Shown here piece after piece: positions 5,496 to 16,766 of a stretch of 47,604 bases of DNA. The stretch is from positions 1-47,604 of the IMG/VR virus record IMGVR_UViG_3300010391_000061; one strand, 5' to 3'. The translations under genes were made by a program, and so were the position numbers. Positions within the stretch are counted from its first letter, which is position 1, and every line of letters begins with the position of its first letter. Origin of the DNA: a virus. The notes below the pieces were generated by a model. That model worked only from the letters and a program-made list of their open reading frames with translations, made no database searches and was not told where the DNA came from.

Positions 5496-8400
5496 TTACC
5501 GCTCTCCCCCCGCGACGGGGATCTTGTCCAGAGGCACGACGGGCACATCCCCCATTTTCGCGATGGGGATGTCATCGAGGGAGCGCACCGGAATTGCTCC
5601 CTGGGGGGCCATGAGCGCCGCCGCAACGCCGGCGCGCTTCTGAATGGCCGCGTAATAGTCCTCGGCCATCTTCACTCGGCCCCCTTCCTCCACCCCTAAC
5701 CACCGCAAGAATTGGGCCTTATCCTCCACCCCGTAGTAGGGGCTGGCCATCTTGAGCGATTGCCCAAACCCCTTTTGGGTGCCTCCCAGCTTCACGTACG
5801 CGAGGGCATACTTCTTCATCGCCTGATCGTCATCATAGCGCAGGGCCTTCCGCAGGTTCCACAGCGCCAGACCCTTCTCGCCCACATCACCTGGCCGATA
5901 GGACTCCTTGCCGAGCACGTCTTCCCGGAAAACTGTCCGTAATTCCAAGAGGCGATAGTAGGCGGCCTCATCCACGCGAACCGGCGTTCCGGGCCTCAAT
6001 CTCGGCAGCGCCCCCTTGCCGCGCGTCTGCGGCGTGGGCCGACCAGTAGCTACAGCCACCGCTCCGCCCAGCCCCAGGCCCTGTGCGACATTGAGTAGCG
6101 GGTCACGAATCGGGCGACGCTCGAAAGGCTGGGGATAGAGAGAGCGCCCCGTAATCAGTTCCACGGGCGTTTTGTAGAGCGGCCCCAGTCCGGTCACCAC
6201 CTTTTCGGCCGGAGCGAGGGCGGTTTGCGTAAGCCAGTCACGGTAGGACAGATGTCCGTTCGCAACCTGCTTCACATCATAGGGCGCGTCGTCCAGGCCA
6301 AACCACTCGAGCAGATCCGGCACATCGCCGATGCGCCATAGCACCAGGGGATTCCCTTCCGCGTCATGCCCCAGGATCAGGTGCGGGCGCGCCGCCTCTT
6401 CAGGGGAGAGCTTCTTTTCGTCTTCCGGGAACATCCACGCGTTGTAGGCTTGGACCGCTCCGAAGAGGAGCGCGATCTTCAGCGCATACTTGCTCAACCC
6501 GAAAACCATCCCCGGCGCCTTCCCTACCGCATAGCGACCGGCCCGTCTTTCGCGGATAGCGTTCAACAGCAGGCCCTTCTCGGCCGCCGGGTTCACCTCC
6601 CACCAGGAGGCAAAGGGGACGACGTAAGTGCGCAGCCACTGCGTCAAGGGGGAGACCTGATCGTAAGCCCCCAGCCCTTCATTTGACAGCTTGTAGGCCC
6701 GGTCGCGCAGATCCTCAATCGCCATGACTTCCGCTGGATTGCTTGACCAGAAGGCATCGGGCTTTCCCGGCCCGCAGCGCGCTTCGTCCCGCTGCATCTG
6801 CTCCAGAACGTCCAGATAGGACGCATACCGCAGCAAGGCCTCCCGCGCATCCGTTGAAACGCGAGCCGCGCGCCAATAGGCCCCCCACGCGCGCTTGAGA
6901 CCATCAACCGTTCCTCCGGCCCTCTCTAGCGCGTCAGTCAACCGCCGCAGATCGTCCAGGTCCCCCATCTCCTGGGCCTGCAAGAGCCCCTGCGGCCCGC
7001 CTCGGTCCATCCATTCCTTCGCCTCTCCTGTAGGCGGGCGCGTGGTCCGAAATACCGAGTAGAGGTCCGTCACCGCCCGCTTCAGATTGTTCGGCCGAAG
7101 GGTCGAGGGGTTGCCCCGCAATACCTTGCTGAGATCGCCCGTCTCGTTTCTCAGATTATAGTTGATCCACCGGAACGGGGAGATCAGTTGCCACTGTTTC
7201 CAGGCGTTGTTGACGGCGCGCGCGATCCTTCCGGTGATGCCGACGGCGGGAGCGCGGTTGAACATCTCTAAGGCCCCAATCGCCTCCTCGGGGAGAACCA
7301 TCTCCCGGAAGCGCCCGCCCATAGAAAGCGCCGTGCGCACCTTTTCGAGAGGCACTCCCACTTCGGCAAGGAGCTGGGCCGTAGCCTCGTCCACCAACTT
7401 CTCCGGGATGGTCTTGGAGAGGTAGAAAGCATTGCCCTCGCGGGCTTGCCACAGTGCGTATCCTTCGGGGATCAGATCATGCCAGTCTACCGGCTCGCCA
7501 GCTTGCTTGGCCTTGGCCGCAGCCTTTTTCTCCAGGATAGGCCGCAGGTTGAGAGGACTGCTCTCGACTTTGGCCAACACGCGCGCTACTTCCGTGTCGT
7601 GATCCATCTGGGACAGCACTTCCCACTGCGCCTTTATCACGTCGCTGAGGTAATCCTTGGCGTTCGCCGTGCGCCCTCTCAAGAACCCCCGGCCTGTTGG
7701 CGTGTGGACGCCTCTGCGACTCACTCCTATGATCCGTTCCGACTCCAGGTAGTCAAGCACCAGATGACGGAAGTATTTCTCGCGGGTCAGTCTGCCTGAC
7801 GGGTCAAAGCCCGCCTCCCGCATCGCTTCGATGTAAACGTCCGTGACCTCCTGGGTGTGCGCGCGGAACCGACCCAGGGCCTCCCGCGCCGGGGTGGACT
7901 TCGCGAGTTCAGAGTCTACGCGCGCCAGCTCCTCGAGCAGCGTTTCCGGGGTAAGCCCATAAGGCAACTTGTCGCCTCCGACGCCGCGCTCCACGTTCTC
8001 CTGCATATCGTCCAGGAGAACTTTCCGCTGGAACAAGTCCTCAGCCCTCGGATCATCGCGAACGGGAGAGAGCACGTCTTGCAGCCGCCCCGCCGTGCGT
8101 GCGCCGGAAATCGCTTTCTGCTTGCGGAGTTTCACCAGGTCAAAGTGGAGCTGTGAATATCTCCCCTGCCCTCTGGGCATCGTAGGGAACGTCCGAGTGG
8201 TCGTGTTCTTGGCCTGCTCTGCCAAGGAGCGGAACCGCTCCCACAACCCCATCCGAGGAGGCGTCTTGGCGGCCTGATAGCGAGCCTCCACCTCCGGCGA
8301 AGTGAAGGTGAAGTCCCCGCCAGGAGGGGTTGCGCCCCCCGCCGGCGGAACCTTTCGTATGGTCAAGCCGGGCTGGGGAAGTTCTGGCTCTGGCACTTCG

Positions 8401-10052
8401 GTCTTGGCGCGTTCCGTGGCCCGCTCCGCCTCGGAACCCGCCTCCCGCGGTGCGGCCGCGCGCGCGCGCCGGGCCTCGGCCGTCGTGGGCGGGGTCGCGA
8501 CTTTCTGGCCCCCGCCCTGCCCTGCGATCTCCTGCAGCGCGTCCCCGGCCTCTCCCCGGATGGGGAAGGCCCGCAGGAAGTCCGGCAGCATCTCCTCCGG
8601 GACCTGCCACCATCCCCCGGTGGGCCGGTAGCGGGCGAGCTGCTTCCCATGTACCGTGAAGCTCTTGCCGCGCTGCGAGACCGTCATAATCCGGGGCCCC
8701 TCGACCATGATCCCCGCCTCCCCCTCGCGGGGGGAGCGCCACCGCAGATGCCAGGCCGCATTGCCAATCCCGAAGACCGGGACCTTCTCGCCCGCCTTGA
8801 TGTCCTCCAGCGCCGTCTCCGTGGTGAACTTCCCCGCGCGAGAGATGCTCTTGGCGAAGAGCTTGGCCACCGCCTCCATGCGCCCCGGCGGGATGACCAG
8901 CCCGGAGATCGACTTCCCCGTCTTGGTGTCGCGGAACGTGGTGTACTCTCGCAGGAACTGGCCATGGGCCCGATCGGACTCGGTGCGGGCCACCATCTGC
9001 ACCTGACCCATCACGGGGCGGATGATCCCCACCAAGAGGCCGTGCCGCGCACCCTTGGCGTCCTTGATCTCATGCAGGCTCAACCCATCGGCCAGCGGAG
9101 TTTCCCGCAGGATGTCCCCGGTGGATTTCGCGGTGAGCCGTCGCTCCGCGTCCTCCATCTCCGGGTTGTTGTGCACCACCTCCCGCTCGGTCAGGTAGGA
9201 ATCCAGCACGCGGTTCCCCACGTCCCAGGGCAGGAATAGCATCTCGTGCATGAGGTCCTTCACGGTGTAGCCCTGGCTGGGCACGAAGGCCTTGCGCTTC
9301 ACCCCGAGCTGCTGCAGCGCGCGCTGGTCGAACCAGCCCTTCTTGATGAAGTGCTGCTCGACCAGGTCGGCCGGCTGGAACTTGCGGAACCACTCCATCA
9401 TCGCATAGTTGTCCAGCTCGCCCCCCATCGCCAGATCGGAGATCCCTCCCACGTCCGTAGTCTCTGCCCCGCCGCGAGAGGTCGCGCCCAGCCCGCGCAG
9501 CCGCCCGCCGATAGCCGACAGGAAGCGTCGCTCCCCCGCCGATCCCAGGGAATACATGCTGATGATCGGAGAGGACACCTGGCCGGAGCGGTCTACTCGT
9601 GCCAGCCCCTGGAGGAAGGGCGTGGCCGTCCATTCGTAATCCACCAGGACCAGCACCCGCCGCCCCTTGCCCACGCCCGGAAGCTCGTTGATGTGGTGCA
9701 GAGAAAACCCCGTCTTCGCCGCCGCGGAGATCAGCGCGATGGGGACCTCCCCCGCCTGAAACTGCTTGACGTTTGCGGCGCGCTTGCTCGCGTTCTCGTC
9801 TCCGGTGATCGAAACCACCCGATCCTCCCCGAAGGCGGCCTTCAGGATCTCGTGTGGGCTTTCCAGCAGGGGTTGTTCCCGCACCCGCTCCAGCAGTTCG
9901 TCGCGCGCCGCCAGCGCCTCCGGGACCTCCCCCAGGTCGTTCAGATTCCCGTCTGAGTCCTTCTCCACCAGGTGCGTGTTGATGGCCGCGATTGCCGCTT
10001 GGAGATTGCCTTTGCCCTCTACCTGGGGACTCACATAGAGCGTGGAGACCAC
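5496..10052 (-). CDS. Giant polyvalent protein, C-terminal part: helicase C-lobe plus LPD-like region
   Basis: 1518 aa as an open frame from a GTG, but that GTG has no proper ribosome site and cuts into the first strand of the helicase C-lobe. The frame is identical to that of the 2228-aa gene upstream, separated only by TAG at 10080-10082, so this is best read as its continuation (3756 aa in all). Helicase motif V-like residues lie at about 95-117 and motif VI-like QGLARVDRSGQ at about 150. Next comes a long linker, then a region with NYNLRNETGDLSKVLRG at about 980. A hydrophobic stretch, GLSKYALKIALLFGAVQA, lies at about 1210. Such regions occur in phage large polyvalent proteins carried in the virion. 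Ends with TAA. Confidence 0.7.
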   Translation of the reverse strand: MVSTLYVSPQVEGKGNLQAAIAAINTHLVEKDSDGNLNDLGEVPEALAARDELLERVREQPLLESPHEILKAAFGEDRVVSITGDENASKRAANVKQFQAGEVPIALISAAAKTGFSLHHINELPGVGKGRRVLVLVDYEWTATPFLQGLARVDRSGQVSSPIISMYSLGSAGERRFLSAIGGRLRGLGATSRGGAETTDVGGISDLAMGGELDNYAMMEWFRKFQPADLVEQHFIKKGWFDQRALQQLGVKRKAFVPSQGYTVKDLMHEMLFLPWDVGNRVLDSYLTEREVVHNNPEMEDAERRLTAKSTGDILRETPLADGLSLHEIKDAKGARHGLLVGIIRPVMGQVQMVARTESDRAHGQFLREYTTFRDTKTGKSISGLVIPPGRMEAVAKLFAKSISRAGKFTTETALEDIKAGEKVPVFGIGNAAWHLRWRSPREGEAGIMVEGPRIMTVSQRGKSFTVHGKQLARYRPTGGWWQVPEEMLPDFLRAFPIRGEAGDALQEIAGQGGGQKVATPPTTAEARRARAAAPREAGSEAERATERAKTEVPEPELPQPGLTIRKVPPAGGATPPGGDFTFTSPEVEARYQAAKTPPRMGLWERFRSLAEQAKNTTTRTFPTMPRGQGRYSQLHFDLVKLRKQKAISGARTAGRLQDVLSPVRDDPRAEDLFQRKVLLDDMQENVERGVGGDKLPYGLTPETLLEELARVDSELAKSTPAREALGRFRAHTQEVTDVYIEAMREAGFDPSGRLTREKYFRHLVLDYLESERIIGVSRRGVHTPTGRGFLRGRTANAKDYLSDVIKAQWEVLSQMDHDTEVARVLAKVESSPLNLRPILEKKAAAKAKQAGEPVDWHDLIPEGYALWQAREGNAFYLSKTIPEKLVDEATAQLLAEVGVPLEKVRTALSMGGRFREMVLPEEAIGALEMFNRAPAVGITGRIARAVNNAWKQWQLISPFRWINYNLRNETGDLSKVLRGNPSTLRPNNLKRAVTDLYSVFRTTRPPTGEAKEWMDRGGPQGLLQAQEMGDLDDLRRLTDALERAGGTVDGLKRAWGAYWRAARVSTDAREALLRYASYLDVLEQMQRDEARCGPGKPDAFWSSNPAEVMAIEDLRDRAYKLSNEGLGAYDQVSPLTQWLRTYVVPFASWWEVNPAAEKGLLLNAIRERRAGRYAVGKAPGMVFGLSKYALKIALLFGAVQAYNAWMFPEDEKKLSPEEAARPHLILGHDAEGNPLVLWRIGDVPDLLEWFGLDDAPYDVKQVANGHLSYRDWLTQTALAPAEKVVTGLGPLYKTPVELITGRSLYPQPFERRPIRDPLLNVAQGLGLGGAVAVATGRPTPQTRGKGALPRLRPGTPVRVDEAAYYRLLELRTVFREDVLGKESYRPGDVGEKGLALWNLRKALRYDDDQAMKKYALAYVKLGGTQKGFGQSLKMASPYYGVEDKAQFLRWLGVEEGGRVKMAEDYYAAIQKRAGVAAALMAPQGAIPVRSLDDIPIAKMGDVPVVPLDKIPVAGGER

Positions 10053-10079
10053 TACCTGATAGCCCCGCTGGACCGCCTG

Positions 10080-10082
10080 CTA
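10080..10082 (-). other. In-frame amber codon inside the helicase
   Basis: The mRNA reads GAC AUC UAG CAG GCG GUC. The frame stays open for 1527 codons after the UAG, and the residues after it (QAVQRGYQVVVSTLY) are the expected first strand of the helicase C-lobe. UAG followed by C is a context often linked to readthrough. UAG otherwise serves as an ordinary stop in many genes here, including large terminase and capsid, so the code is probably standard. Readthrough, a suppressor tRNA, a mutation or a base-call error are all open. Confidence 0.75.
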
Positions 10083-13000
10083 GATGTCGGGGATGGCACG
10101 GCGCAAGCGCAAATCAGCCAGGGCGCGCTTGTTCTCATTCTGTAACTGGGCGATGATCCCGAACCCCTGAGGCCCCTTGCTCATCGCCCCGAATTGCTGA
10201 TAGGCGCGGAGGATGTCCCCGCAAAGCGCCATCCGCTCCTCGAACGCGCGCCGCTCTTCCGGCGTGAGTGTCCGCTCCTGCGTCTCGTACTCCACCCCGC
10301 CCCGCCAGAGTGACCGCGCGAGGAAGTAGCCACGGGCCTTCAGTTCCCGCATGAACTGCTCAATCTCCGCCGGCGACATGCGATAACTTCCGGTCGGAGT
10401 CTGCCGACCTTGGCCGCCCGACTCGATCTCCGACGCGTCCCCTCCGGTGGCAATCGTCGCCAGCACGTCGGCGGGCGCTTTGCCGCCCCCGCCACCCTTC
10501 ACGCGCCCGGCGCCACGCGCCATGTATTCATCGAAGGATCCCTTGCGGGTATCCCAGAGCTTCCAGCCGAACAGGTGGCGCAGGTGATCCGGCTCCTCCG
10601 CCGGCGTGCCGGAGAAGTAAGCGAAGCGCCCCCCGCTCTTGTGGCCGCGGATAGCGTCGTGCAGCTTCAGCCAGGCTCCCCCCACCTGGGCTTCCGGGTT
10701 GCGATACTCGTGCACCTCGTCTGCCAGCAGCGCGTCCGGAGCTACTGCCGTCAAGCTATCCACATAACGCCGGAGGTTCGGGAAATCCACGATATAGATG
10801 GTGGGGGCATCCGACACCGGCAGCGCCGCGGGGGTCTTCGCCCCGTGCGCCGCCCCCTTCACGTCCGTACAGCGCACGATGGTATAGGGGTACTCCCCCT
10901 TCTGGGCGTGCGGGTTGCCAGTGGCCACGATAGCCATCTCCCGCATCACTTCGTCCACGACGTTCTGATTGTGGGTGACCAGGACCATCCGCCTGGAGAG
11001 ACCCACCTCCTGCCAGTGGAGCGCCACCGCGCCGATCTCACGGGACTTTCCCAGCCCCATGTCGTCGCCCAGGAGGAAGGCGTGGCCGGCGGGCTTTTCC
11101 GGGGCGTAGGTGCGCCCCTCCACCAGGTCGGGATCGTTGGCCTGCATCGCGGAGAGGTAGCCGTCTACCTGCTCAGAGGAGAACACGCCGGCGCGGACGG
11201 CGCGCGCGACGAGGGGGTGAACGGGGACGGAAAGCGGCGGCGCGGGCACGCCGGAGAGGGTGCGGGATTCTACAACGAGTCGGGGGTGGGGAGCGTCCCG
11301 TTCCGGGCCTCGTAGAGTATATCCAGCATACAGATCGCTGTGATCCGCAGCTTCTGCGGCATCGGATCGCTCTCGTCGTAGTCGCTGCTCGATAGTTCGT
11401 CGTCCAGCACCTTCCCGAACCAGATCGCCCGTTCCTCCGGGCTCAGGCCCTTCGGTTTCGACAGATCCTGGTCCGGCATCCACGCCGGATACAGGTTCCC
11501 CTTCTCGTCCCGGACGAAGCTCCCCCACGCCTCCCTCAGGTCGTCGAGGTCCCTCGGCGGGTCCTCGAGGCGGTACACCAGGCCCTGTATCTCCTCGATC
11601 TCCATCTGGACCAACATCTCCAGCGGGTCGGTGGGGCGCGGTATCAGCGTCCCGCGGCGCTTCGGCTCCGGCGACGGTGTCGGAGACTCTTCTTCCGCCG
11701 GCGGGGGCGGGGCGGGTTGTTCCGGTGGCTTTCGGTAGCGATCGGCTCGGCGCATCTGCCTGCTCTCCTGCCGGGATTATACCACGTTCTGGCCGCGCCA
11801 CTGCGCCTCCCTGTGCCAGGGGGCGAACAATCTTTTGGTAGGACTCCCAGTCGGTCGGGGCGGCGTCGCCCGTGGCGAGCACCGGCGGCCGGCCGTCATT
11901 GTAGGGTGTCTTGTCGAAGACGTAGAGGCGGGAACCCACGTCCGTCCCGCGCGCGCGATAGGCCCCGGGCGGAGAGTCAATGATCGCCCGGATCATCCCT
12001 TTCGTCCCCAGCCACTGGCGGAAGGCGCTGTCCTCCACGGTGGGCATGATCGCCACCATCCGCCCGCCGTCCTTCAACTGGTGCTCGATCTGCCAGGCCG
12101 CGAATCGCTGGGAAAGGTCCGTGGGCTGGAACGGCAGCGGAACACGGCGGCCCGCATACCGCCCGGTGGAATACTTCCCCCAGGGCGGATTGGTCACGAT
12201 CACATCCACGGCGCGCTTCTGCCCCAGGGCGTCGGCCTGCGTGACGTCGGTGAATCCCAGGTCCCTCAGCACCGCCGCCCGGCGCGGGTCCAGCTCATTC
12301 GCCCAGACGCTCACCTGCGGGTCGGAGAGGAACGGCGCCACCAGATTGCCGGTCCCGGCAGTGGGCTCGTAGATCAGTTCCCCGGGCTGCACGTCGGCGG
12401 CGTAGACGGCCGCACCGGACACCGGGTAGGGCGTCGAAAACTGCTGCAGCTTCGTGATCTCGATACTGCGCTGCCGTCGGCCGAGTTGGGCCTCGAGCTC
12501 CTGGCCAACGCGCATGAGCGTGCCCAGATCGGACGGGGGGAGCGTGCGCCAGGCGCGGTTCATCGCGCCTTCGATGGCGTCGTAGAGGTCGTCTATGTTG
12601 AACTCTTCGGGGGCCAGGGGCGCGTCCGGGGTATCGGCGCGGTCCACGAAGCGCAGGCCCGACTTCTCCGCTACCGCGCGGCGCAGTTCCAGGGGCGTGG
12701 GGGGAAGCTGGATCTCGGAGATCGCGTCAATGAGGGTTGAAATGCGACGCTGGCGGGGGTCGGAAACCCCCTTGCGTAGACGTTCGGTCCTGGCATTCTC
12801 TGCGAGGTCGGGGGGGATGGGAGCGGGGGCAGTCGGCGGTGCTTCCTCGCCGAGCGCCTTCGTGATGGCCTTGCGCACCACGTCCGCCTGCCCCTGCCGC
12901 GGCCCAACCTGATCGGGTTCCGCCTGGAAGATACCCAGCTTCTGCTGGAGGAGATCATTCTGCCGCGCGGGGTCAGACGGCCACTCGGCGCGAGTTAGGG

Positions 13001-16000
13001 AGAGGCGCTCTGCGATTTTCCTCCCCACCTTCAACTGCACGTCAATGGAGTCGCCGATGACGCTCGCCGTGGCGGACAGGTCGCGCCCCTCGCGGATAGT
13101 CGCGACGGGGGGCTTAGGTGCGGGAGCGACCGGTGCGCCCGCGGCGGGCCGCGTCTCAGAGCCATACCCCGTGTCCGCCACGCGCAGGGTCCCGCCCTCG
13201 CCGTCCCGCGCCTGGGGCTTGATAACCTCATTGCGGATACGCTGCCCAGCCGCCCGCAGGTCCGCTTCCAATACATCGGGGAACTGCTGCTGCAGCCATG
13301 CCAGGTAGCGGGCGTCGGCCTTGCTGGGCTTCGCCTGGGCCACCACGTAGAGCGCGCGGTCCACGTCGCTCTCGAAGGTGAGCACGTACTGCTTGCGCCC
13401 GAAGGAGTAGCGCGGCTTCGCCCCGGACAGGTCGGCGGGAAGGGATTCCTTCGGACCGGGTGCTGCCCGCGGGAGCGGCGCGCGCGTCGCAGGGGCGGCG
13501 GCAACAGAGGGTGAGACTTCTGGATGCTGAGGTGGCGCGAGTTCGGCTAGCGCAGGGTAATCAGCCAATATTTCGGGAGGAACGGGCTTGCCCTCGTCCG
13601 TCGCTCGGCGGACAGCCTCCTCCGCCATCTCGCGAGTGGTGTCATCCAGCCCGAATCTGAAGGTTGACCAACGGTGGCTTGCGTATCGGCCCCTGAGATC
13701 GGCGAGCGTATTCGGGCCGCGGCTCTCCGCGATGGCCTTATCTAGCTCCCTCTTGGCATTCCTGAGGGCTAACTTATAAGCGGGTGACCACCCATCGCGC
13801 TCCCCCGCCTTCAATGCCGCCCCAAAGTGTGCGCGCGCGGCTACTTCCCCGGGATGCGTTGTGTTTCTAAGTTCATCCACCAACGCGGCCCAGTCATCAG
13901 CGGACGAAGGCGCGGAAGCAGGCTTGGGCGCAGGATGAATCGAAACAGGCGCAACCGGCTTTGCCGCCCCCGGGCTTGCCCCAATGGCAGCCTTCACTGC
14001 CGCTCGGACCACATCGGGATCGTTCTCTAGGCTCGACAATGCCCCCACGCCGGCGGCGATGTCAACGAGTTTCTCTGGCACACCGTGCTTGGCCGCGATA
14101 CGCGCCACGTTGATAGTAGCGCGCGACCGCCTGCCCCCTCGGTGAATCGCCGCATTACCCAGCCTGCCAGACTTGACCACCGCCTTCGTGATGTCGTCAA
14201 TGAGTGCGTCTGACTCGGGCGTGCCCGCTCCCTCGGCCGGGGTCTCTATCGCCCGCCCGATAGCATCCTGCCCGTGTTGCGTGGCGCGCGTGCCGCGCGC
14301 GGCCAGCTCCTGCTCTACCCCGTCAAGCTCGCGCTGCGTACGCTCCGTCTCCCCCGGGGGCGGCTCGCGCTCCTCTGCCCGGTACCGCGCGTGCGCCCTG
14401 AGTATCTCGCCCAGCCTATCTCGTTCCGCCACCAGTTCGGGGACGGACATCTGCGCAAGGTCAGGGGTGGTCACCCCCGGCGCACCCGCCCCTGTTCCCG
14501 GCTGTACGACCGCCCCCTCTGCCTGCGTGCTGGGCGTTCGCCCCTCCGGACGACCCACACCAGCCCGCCCCCCTTCGAGCGCCGCTCCTGGGGCTTCTGG
14601 CGGCGTCACGAACTCCGGGTACTCCGCGGCGAGGTCGGGGTAGGCCTCCGCCCAGCCGGGGACGACGTCCGGCGCGCGCCGGTACACCCGCCCCATTCTC
14701 AACTCGTCGTGGACTAAGCGTTGGTGTCTCTCTGCCGCCTCCCCTGGCGTAAAGCCTAGCACCGGATTCGATAGCGCTCCGACAGCCTGACGAGGGGACA
14801 TCCTGCGCGTGGCCGCGTCTAGCTGCTGTCCGATCTCATCTCTTCGCCCGTCCGTGGTGTCGGGGCGTGAGTATTCCTCTCCTAGCGCCACCACTTCCGC
14901 CACGGCGGGAGAAGGCTCCGCTGGCCCCACCGGCTCACCCGCTAATTCCTCGGACGTGAGTCCCGCGCTTCTCGGTTCCACCGCGACCGCAGGCCCAGGC
15001 CGGGCCCCCGTCGAAGACGCCCCAGGAGTAACTCCGGGGCCGAACTCAGCCGCGTCAGCCCCTTGCAGTGGAGGTTCCGCTGCAGAAGGCACGACTTCCG
15101 GGGCCTCGGCCGGCGCCGGAAGTGCCGCCCGCCCGCCCCCGCCCGCCTCCTGCCGCATCGCGTCGAGCACCCCGCTCTGCAGCGTCGCTCCCCACGTCCC
15201 GGGACGCAGGTAGATACCCCGCGTGGCCGCCGCGTCGAGCACCGACCCGTACCGTATCGCCCGCTGTCGAAATAGCTCCCAGATGGCCGTCTGTGCCGGC
15301 GTAGCTTCCGGGGAGAGGGTAATCTGGTGGACGGCTGTGTCCGGCATGAGCGGGCTTACCGGGACCTCTTCCATCCCCCCGCCCGCGCGCGCCCGCCAGG
15401 CCCGCAAGAAGGGTACACCCCCCTCGTCCGCGAACCGAGACCACGCGTTCGCGAGGTCGGCCTTCCCCACGGTCTCCGCCGTCCGCAGATCCCGCGCCGG
15501 GCCGGAGAGTTGCAAACGCGCCTCTCCCAGCCCCGCCGTGGCGGTTCCGAACAGCAGTGCCCCAGCCGCGCCCGCCGCCGCGCCCTTCGCCACCTCTACG
15601 GGCGAGGGGGCTTCTCCACGAGCGATACTCTGCGCGACCGACTCACCTACATTGAAAACTGCCCCCGGCGTGGTCTGTGTCAGCCCGCCGCGGATGATCC
15701 TCGCGGCCGAAGGGTGAGCGAAGAGCGTCTCTACCGCCCTGACTGCGGTAGGGCTGCCCGCTGCCGCCTTACGCAGCAGCCCGCTCTCCAGCGTCGCTCC
15801 CGTCTTCCCCGCCAGAGCATTCCAGCCGAGGCCCACCCCCGGAATGGCCTGTGTGCCAACAAGGGCCCCTGCCATGCGAGAAAGCCAGTTGGCCGCCTTC
15901 TCAGTACGTGACGCGCCAGCCGGCGGAACCGTGTAGACCGCCGAAGGATCGCGCGCCCCGATTGCGACCTGACCACCTTCCGGGAAGGCCCCGAGTGTGC

Positions 16001-16766
16001 GCCCCACCGGCCCCGCCGCCACGTTTGCCAGCCAGGAGTCATCGGGCACGTTCAACTCGGTCAGGCCCACATCTACATCCACTCGCCCTGCTGGACTGGG
16101 CTTCCCATACCGCGCAAGATGAGTCTTGCGGTCGGCCCGTCCCTGGCGCGCTCGCGCTTCCTCGGCCCGCTGCGCGACCGCGCGTTCGGCGTCGCGCTTC
16201 CGCCACTCCGCCTGCGCCCGCTCGTTCCGCTGCCGGCGTGCCGTTCCCGCCGCCGCCTGTGAAATCTGCACCGCGGCCCCAAGGCGGCGGCGCTCCTGGG
16301 GAGAGGCAGTGTCATAGCGAACCAATGCCTGCAAGCCCTCCCCGGACGGCGGCAACGCCTCCTGGGAGTGCAGATGAGCGAGGGTGTCGTAAATCATCCC
16401 CATGCCCGTAGGGTTGTACTCCGGGTGGTGTTTCGCGAAGTACGCTCTCCATGCCTCCTTGTCCCCTCCCGTCAGCGCGTGCTGTTCGATCATTTCTGTG
16501 AGACGTGACGGGTCCTTGAACGCCTGGATGTACTCACCGGGACTGCGGGGCGGGGTCACTGCCGGCGCGGCGGCATGATCCCGCGCCGCTATCGCCGCCA
16601 ACTCCGGGTCAATTCCGACGTCGCCGGCGTTGCCCAGCACCGAGGAGGGCCCGAAGTCCAGCACTGAGGCGACAGGAGGCGCGCTGGACTGCCCCGCCAG
16701 CGTTGCCGCCCGCTTCTCTCTCCGCCGGATCGCCACTAGCTCAGGATCGAGTATGCCAGTGCTCAT
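10080..16766 (-). CDS. Giant polyvalent protein, N-terminal part: DNA methyltransferase plus SNF2-like helicase N-lobe
   Basis: 2228 aa. Residues 1-430 look like an internal virion protein, with charged helices and a hydrophobic Ala/Gly-rich stretch near 395. A low-complexity linker follows. An adenine-type DNA methyltransferase lies at about 1440-1600, with a PTAGTGN SAM-binding motif near 1468 and catalytic NPPW near 1525. The helicase N-lobe has GDDMGLGKS (Walker A, about 1900), LLADEVHEY (DExH, about 2015) and YFSGTP (about 2050). It stops at TAG, exactly between the two RecA lobes. Methyltransferase plus helicase recalls P1 DarB, an injected antirestriction protein. The place after internal-virion genes supports ejection into the host. 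That function is inferred. Confidence 0.8.
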   Translation of the reverse strand: MSTGILDPELVAIRRREKRAATLAGQSSAPPVASVLDFGPSSVLGNAGDVGIDPELAAIAARDHAAAPAVTPPRSPGEYIQAFKDPSRLTEMIEQHALTGGDKEAWRAYFAKHHPEYNPTGMGMIYDTLAHLHSQEALPPSGEGLQALVRYDTASPQERRRLGAAVQISQAAAGTARRQRNERAQAEWRKRDAERAVAQRAEEARARQGRADRKTHLARYGKPSPAGRVDVDVGLTELNVPDDSWLANVAAGPVGRTLGAFPEGGQVAIGARDPSAVYTVPPAGASRTEKAANWLSRMAGALVGTQAIPGVGLGWNALAGKTGATLESGLLRKAAAGSPTAVRAVETLFAHPSAARIIRGGLTQTTPGAVFNVGESVAQSIARGEAPSPVEVAKGAAAGAAGALLFGTATAGLGEARLQLSGPARDLRTAETVGKADLANAWSRFADEGGVPFLRAWRARAGGGMEEVPVSPLMPDTAVHQITLSPEATPAQTAIWELFRQRAIRYGSVLDAAATRGIYLRPGTWGATLQSGVLDAMRQEAGGGGRAALPAPAEAPEVVPSAAEPPLQGADAAEFGPGVTPGASSTGARPGPAVAVEPRSAGLTSEELAGEPVGPAEPSPAVAEVVALGEEYSRPDTTDGRRDEIGQQLDAATRRMSPRQAVGALSNPVLGFTPGEAAERHQRLVHDELRMGRVYRRAPDVVPGWAEAYPDLAAEYPEFVTPPEAPGAALEGGRAGVGRPEGRTPSTQAEGAVVQPGTGAGAPGVTTPDLAQMSVPELVAERDRLGEILRAHARYRAEEREPPPGETERTQRELDGVEQELAARGTRATQHGQDAIGRAIETPAEGAGTPESDALIDDITKAVVKSGRLGNAAIHRGGRRSRATINVARIAAKHGVPEKLVDIAAGVGALSSLENDPDVVRAAVKAAIGASPGAAKPVAPVSIHPAPKPASAPSSADDWAALVDELRNTTHPGEVAARAHFGAALKAGERDGWSPAYKLALRNAKRELDKAIAESRGPNTLADLRGRYASHRWSTFRFGLDDTTREMAEEAVRRATDEGKPVPPEILADYPALAELAPPQHPEVSPSVAAAPATRAPLPRAAPGPKESLPADLSGAKPRYSFGRKQYVLTFESDVDRALYVVAQAKPSKADARYLAWLQQQFPDVLEADLRAAGQRIRNEVIKPQARDGEGGTLRVADTGYGSETRPAAGAPVAPAPKPPVATIREGRDLSATASVIGDSIDVQLKVGRKIAERLSLTRAEWPSDPARQNDLLQQKLGIFQAEPDQVGPRQGQADVVRKAITKALGEEAPPTAPAPIPPDLAENARTERLRKGVSDPRQRRISTLIDAISEIQLPPTPLELRRAVAEKSGLRFVDRADTPDAPLAPEEFNIDDLYDAIEGAMNRAWRTLPPSDLGTLMRVGQELEAQLGRRQRSIEITKLQQFSTPYPVSGAAVYAADVQPGELIYEPTAGTGNLVAPFLSDPQVSVWANELDPRRAAVLRDLGFTDVTQADALGQKRAVDVIVTNPPWGKYSTGRYAGRRVPLPFQPTDLSQRFAAWQIEHQLKDGGRMVAIMPTVEDSAFRQWLGTKGMIRAIIDSPPGAYRARGTDVGSRLYVFDKTPYNDGRPPVLATGDAAPTDWESYQKIVRPLAQGGAVARPERGIIPAGEQADAPSRSLPKATGTTRPAPAGGRRVSDTVAGAEAPRDADTAPHRPAGDVGPDGDRGDTGPGVPPRGPAEGPRRPEGGVGELRPGREGEPVSGVDAGPGSVETEGPEPGGTGDLVREGAGRRTIEQRLRRERSDAAEAADHSDLYAGYTLRGPERDAPHPRLVVESRTLSGVPAPPLSVPVHPLVARAVRAGVFSSEQVDGYLSAMQANDPDLVEGRTYAPEKPAGHAFLLGDDMGLGKSREIGAVALHWQEVGLSRRMVLVTHNQNVVDEVMREMAIVATGNPHAQKGEYPYTIVRCTDVKGAAHGAKTPAALPVSDAPTIYIVDFPNLRRYVDSLTAVAPDALLADEVHEYRNPEAQVGGAWLKLHDAIRGHKSGGRFAYFSGTPAEEPDHLRHLFGWKLWDTRKGSFDEYMARGAGRVKGGGGGKAPADVLATIATGGDASEIESGGQGRQTPTGSYRMSPAEIEQFMRELKARGYFLARSLWRGGVEYETQERTLTPEERRAFEERMALCGDILRAYQQFGAMSKGPQGFGIIAQLQNENKRALADLRLRRAIPDI

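Follow-up and report, generated by a model that had tools for sequence, protein, structure and literature searches.

The window analysed here is a 47,604-base IMG/VR virus record with 66% GC. Its minus strand carries the head module of a tailed phage, with small and large terminase, an SU10-like portal, the major head protein and structural proteins. Adjoining these head genes is a giant methylase-helicase gene, which is interrupted by one in-frame TAG and which carries a smaller ORF nested in its +1 frame. The features of the locus, in the direction of transcription, are:

10083-16766, minus strand: first 2,228 codons of the giant gene, from an ATG (16766) with a weak Shine-Dalgarno sequence (AAGG)
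11904-12464, minus strand: adenine-methyltransferase-like domain, residues 1435-1621, with STP and NPPW motifs and PHROG methyltransferase matches
11765-11769, minus strand: Shine-Dalgarno sequence AGGAG of the nested ORF, 9 bases before its ATG
11270-11755, minus strand: 161-aa ORF with an ATG start, nested within the giant gene in its +1 frame, in the methylase-helicase linker, with a coding signature
10554-11291, minus strand: helicase N-lobe, residues 1826-2071 (Pfam AAA_34, 3e-16, 59.6 bits, cut-off 27)
10080-10082, minus strand: in-frame TAG, codon 2229; every relative aligned at this point has a sense codon, mostly E, K, R or Q
10050-10052, minus strand: GTG, codon 2239, the first possible restart, with no Shine-Dalgarno sequence, inside the first C-lobe strand
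5496-10079, minus strand: the 1,527 codons of the giant gene that follow the TAG, closed by the TAA (5498-5496), strongly coding, with no Shine-Dalgarno start at their head
9189-9782, minus strand: helicase C-lobe, residues 2329-2526 (Pfam Helicase_C_4, 2e-20, 74 bits, cut-off 30.5)
5628-7484, minus strand: conserved C-terminal domain, residues 3095-3713, also present at the C-terminus of giant proteins from other phages

A methylase-helicase polyvalent protein

AAA_34 is followed by Helicase_C_4, both above their gathering scores, which is the domain order of a Strawberry-notch-type SF2 helicase. Taken together, both parts of the gene encode one 3,756-residue polyvalent protein with a methyltransferase and a Strawberry-notch-type SWI2/SNF2 helicase. 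Pfam gave no match in residues 1-1150 of the giant protein; in DarB-like dyads an LPD36 domain lies on the N-terminal side of the methyltransferase. The C-terminal domain (~620 aa) has no Pfam family; it is 26-40% conserved in ~30 other viral contigs, where it follows differing upstream modules.

The DNA methylase-helicase dyad is known from polyvalent proteins, with DarB of phage P1 as its archetype and Strawberry-notch as the rarer helicase type (Iyer et al. 2017, PMC5512222). Like the P1 dyad, the window protein is a giant tailed-phage protein in which an N6-adenine-methyltransferase-like domain is fused to an SF2 helicase of the SWI2/SNF2 type, and its gene adjoins head genes. The methyltransferase lies N-terminal to the helicase, and its STP and NPPW motifs correspond to the TP and NPP(Y/F) type of the dyad. 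Unlike DarB, the window helicase is of the Strawberry-notch type, with no HMM match to DarB, and its gene is TAG-interrupted and carries the +1 nested ORF in its linker. The order of methyltransferase, AAA_34 and Helicase_C_4 is shared with plasmid Strawberry-notch methyltransferase-helicases from Sphingobium, Mesorhizobium and Nostoc. In contrast to the window protein, the plasmid proteins are only ~1,250-1,470 aa long, have no C-terminal virion domain, and no nested family was found in them. The head-gene neighbourhood suggests that the giant protein may be packaged into the virion and injected.

No close relative emerged when IMG/VR and genome contigs were scanned with single proteins, megablast and blastn against cultured phages returned none, and an exact DNA pattern across the TAG, with the stop codon left open, had no match among the records covered, which may not include near-identical ones. 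The window helicase is very divergent: its nearest helicase relatives are only ~25-28% identical, and a tree of the helicases gave it no firm place (end branch 10).

An in-frame TAG within the helicase motor

As the initial annotation had reported, the upstream frame ends at a TAG (10082-10080, read on the minus strand) and stays open for 1,527 more codons, or 1,518 aa if the downstream ORF is counted from the GTG. This TAG is the sole stop in 3,756 codons ahead of the final TAA. With a codon-usage score trained on the genes of the window, the extension behind the TAG scores +455 as coding, while the frames behind every other predicted gene range from -96 to +59, with positive values only where a neighbouring gene lies in the same frame. 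The open frame after the TAG is thus far outside chance, and no decay is seen in it. The TAG truly cuts the giant gene within its motor domain.

We modelled residues 1830-2540 with AlphaFold, using 64 aligned sequences (mean pLDDT 77, pTM 0.79). The model has a two-lobe SWI2/SNF2-like fold, and its best PDB matches are the SWI2/SNF2 motors CSB, ISW1, CHD4 and RapA. Codon 2229 corresponds to model residue 400, near the end of a long helix (370-404, block pLDDT 96), which is directly followed by the strand 408-413 (QVVVST). In the predicted structure the TAG therefore breaks a folded C-lobe helix and not a linker. The Pfam halves and the model agree with the earlier placement of the TAG between the RecA lobes, directly before the first C-lobe strand. 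It was also rightly noted that the GTG at 10052 lacks a ribosome site and cuts this strand, and all in-frame starts after it fall deeper in the C-lobe.

A first alignment comprised the plasmid Strawberry-notch proteins and an Acinetobacter phage. It was followed by 82 viral contigs, consisting of 80 loci from a profile scan of IMG/VR and two found via the C-terminal domain. A single open frame spans the two lobes in all 82 viral contigs (77 distinct helicase sequences), in 7 of 7 plasmid or phage records (six plasmid genes and the Acinetobacter phage) and in 79 of the 80 loci from bacterial genomes. The related genomes do have a sense codon at the TAG, as the initial annotation had suggested checking: across 82 distinct sequences the column holds E 31 times, K 15, R 14, Q 7, D 5 and H 4 besides other residues, and never a stop. 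It is a surface-type helix position. The same annotation had named homologues whose halves are always separate genes as the observation that would speak against an interrupted helicase; we found the opposite, since the lobes share one gene in all relatives except a Symploca MAG (L192). There the break lies inside the N-lobe, with two ORFs (7929-9896 and 9797-12430) which overlap in different frames, possibly owing to a frameshift.

Several other loci deserve mention. In one relative (L064/L128) the giant gene is naturally divided past the helicase (L064, 12217-12253; L128, 7991-8027), giving two ORFs that overlap, the second of which holds the C-terminal domain. One locus (L033, 9799-12186) has ~320 extra residues between two parts of the N-lobe within one ORF, possibly an inserted domain or an intein. 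Long same-frame extensions behind the giant ORFs of seven relatives (L048, L059, L065, L072, L090, L101 and L115) were considered as further breaks and rejected; they hold no part of the giant protein and mostly look like separate neighbouring genes. The first relatives found (L002-L040) turned out to be ordinary standalone SNF2-like helicases and served only as a control, with both lobes in one ORF each.

Of the explanations offered by the initial annotation, a point change that broke the gene is the one supported by the unbroken relatives. We consider it likely (roughly 85%) that the TAG is either a sporadic nonsense lesion, meaning a mutation that arose very recently in this lineage or allele, or else an error at one base of the consensus of the assembled metagenomic contig. 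The normal product would then be the single 3,756-residue protein. As the sequence reads, ribosomes would stop once the methylase and the helicase N-lobe had been made, and with no efficient restart the short product would have neither a working motor nor the C-terminal domain. If the downstream frame had been unconstrained since the break, at most ~90 substitutions (~2% per site) could have accumulated without a second stop at the 5% level, which argues that the TAG is young or not real. We infer recency or error, rather than function, from this bound together with the relatives; the lack of decay in the downstream frame weighs against it.

Programmed readthrough of the UAG, yielding a short product with the methylase and a long one with both methylase and helicase, would fit a single stop followed by 1,527 intact codons with no restart site, and it had been proposed on these grounds. 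However, the stop is conserved in no relative, and the TAG lies inside the C-lobe helix and not in a linker. We found no RNA structure downstream of the TAG beyond that of shuffled sequences (z +0.3 to +0.7), so no stimulatory structure, and no repeats around it. The base after the stop, which had been taken as prone to readthrough, points the other way for bacterial amber suppression: UAG-C is a poor suppression context in E. coli, because a change from C to A after the amber codon raised SupE suppression ~10-fold (PMC6266110). Moreover, where the giant gene is divided in a relative (L064), the split is after the helicase and not between the lobes. With the nearest helicases only ~25-28% identical there is room for a readthrough peculiar to the narrow lineage of the window, but we consider programmed readthrough very unlikely.

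Amber-suppressing phages and hosts exist, and the window may be an incomplete genome, so that a sense reading of the TAG, through recoding or through a tRNA(CUA) of the phage or its host, has also to be weighed. Against it, the 3,756 codons of the giant gene hold no second in-frame TAG, and no other gene of the window has one. TAG also serves as the ordinary stop of other window genes, those of the major capsid protein and the large terminase among them; what follows it there is non-coding, and in the large terminase gene a TAA comes immediately after. The window was searched for the tRNA with a CUA anticodon that had been suggested, and it holds no tRNA gene of any kind. A sense TAG, including the suppressor tRNA put forward earlier, is therefore extremely unlikely.

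A true gene split would require that a second polypeptide starts at the GTG and that the two halves reassemble into one helicase. The GTG lies just 9 codons past the TAG, and the natural split in L064/L128 shows that a giant gene of this kind can be divided. Yet this GTG has no Shine-Dalgarno sequence, a start there removes part of the first C-lobe strand, and no relative is split between the lobes, which makes a working split highly improbable. We hence retain the sporadic lesion or consensus error as our reading of the TAG.

A +1 reading frame in the methylase-helicase linker

The coding profile of the giant gene has one stretch, residues ~1651-1830, that loses the giant-frame signature while the +1 frame gains it. 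Here the giant protein is a Gly/Pro/Arg-rich low-complexity linker, and the nested ORF lies in it. At the three codon positions the GC content is 0.67/0.45/0.86 for the nested frame vs 0.85/0.66/0.46 for the giant frame. The nested frame scores 0.30 per codon. When the giant protein was reshuffled synonymously 5,000 times, the score was 0.01 (sd 0.05, max 0.21); none of the reshuffles reached the nested score, though 23% of them keep the frame open that long. Exactly one ORF with an ATG, a Shine-Dalgarno of at least 5 and at least 90 codons is present in the giant gene of the window, and it is the one at this slot. Its predicted product has a pI of 4.5 and a charge of -12.

Comparable ORFs are widespread among the relatives. 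When 92 of them were scanned blind, 55 were flagged, almost all at the linker slot and always in frame +1. Under the same requirements for start, Shine-Dalgarno sequence and length, 57 nested ORFs were found in 78 distinct giant genes (296,549 residues), and 45 of them fall in one 65-residue slot. Starting from 18 nested-ORF seeds, we grew a profile that recovers 71 of 83 loci (E-values down to 1e-35) and gives no match to this DNA translated in the giant frame. By this HMM the nested family is present in 71 of the 82 viral contigs. The remaining viral contigs comprise six with a +1 ORF and a strong Shine-Dalgarno sequence in the slot, though with no HMM match, two that begin at the contig edge and three short plasmid-like genes without the family. 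It is also found in four phage-like giant genes of bacterial genomes. Measured from the NPPx motif, the nested ORFs start at a median distance of 119 residues, and those of the family end 30-51 residues before the start of the helicase profile. The family products are mostly acidic, with a median pI of 5.0.

Both frames appear to be maintained. Each of 17 close pairs shows stronger conservation of the nested protein than of the giant protein encoded by the same bases, and in most of these pairs the changes crowd into the nested third position, the pattern of purifying selection on the family in the relatives. The hidden frame being more conserved than the giant frame, it is probably the small protein, and not the linker, that is under selection there. 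Given the nested protein alone, the median probability that the giant frame is stop-free by chance is 0.012 per gene, but it is open in 65 of 65 genes tested, so both frames are kept. By the codon-usage criterion for telling the older from the overprinted frame, as reviewed in PMC8227390, the older coding frame would seem to be the nested one, with the linker as the overprint, an arrangement proposed there for HBV P/S as well.

The nested ORF of the window has no HMM match to the nested family of the relatives (hhalign probability 0.4%, E 0.16), and it reaches the helicase start where the ORFs of the relatives end ~40 residues earlier. Its slot, frame, Shine-Dalgarno sequence and coding signature mark it as a candidate gene. 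As a negative control for the nested signature we used P1 darB (L158). Its 177-codon open +1 stretch before the helicase (residues 647-824) was rejected as a nested gene, since its codon-position signature is that of darB alone (length p 0.025). The cultured Bacteroides phage BS-TP4 (L159, PQ571277.1) has an unannotated 119-aa +1 ORF in the slot, at residues 1475-1596 of its giant protein. The GC content of this ORF in the nested frame is 0.52/0.32/0.65, which is the nested signature, and its length alone is not unusual (p 0.3).

Taken together, giant methylase and Strawberry-notch helicase genes of tailed phages, including that of the window, very probably hide a linker gene of ~110-160 codons in the +1 frame, with its own Shine-Dalgarno sequence and a mostly acidic product, while the giant frame is kept open across it as an overprinted low-complexity linker. 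A reasonable guess is that the product may act as a small partner of the methylase or of the motor, or as an anti-defence protein.

Novelty and significance

Complete small genes in a shifted frame are known from other viruses, such as gene E within D of phiX174 and S within P of HBV, and for HBV it has been proposed that the small gene lies between two fused domains (PMC8227390), as it appears to do here. Unlike these examples, the present case sits in a giant gene of dsDNA tailed phages, and its slot is conserved across very divergent phages. Searches of the nested proteins against Pfam and PHROG gave no family match beyond isolated weak hits, and a search with one member of the nested family returned nothing from 50,697 cultured-phage records. 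We found no earlier report of the family in the literature covered, which lies mostly outside the subscription journals; the family is probably new.

The result for the TAG closes the readthrough story for this giant phage helicase, as all comparable genes are unbroken. If the reading of the linker is true, the nested gene would be an old and widespread phage family of a kind that tends to be overlooked in automatic annotation, since gene callers discard long overlaps on one strand. As BS-TP4 is a cultured phage, the idea of a nested gene is open to bench testing. Such a gene would sit within a gene that is itself thought to protect the injected DNA.
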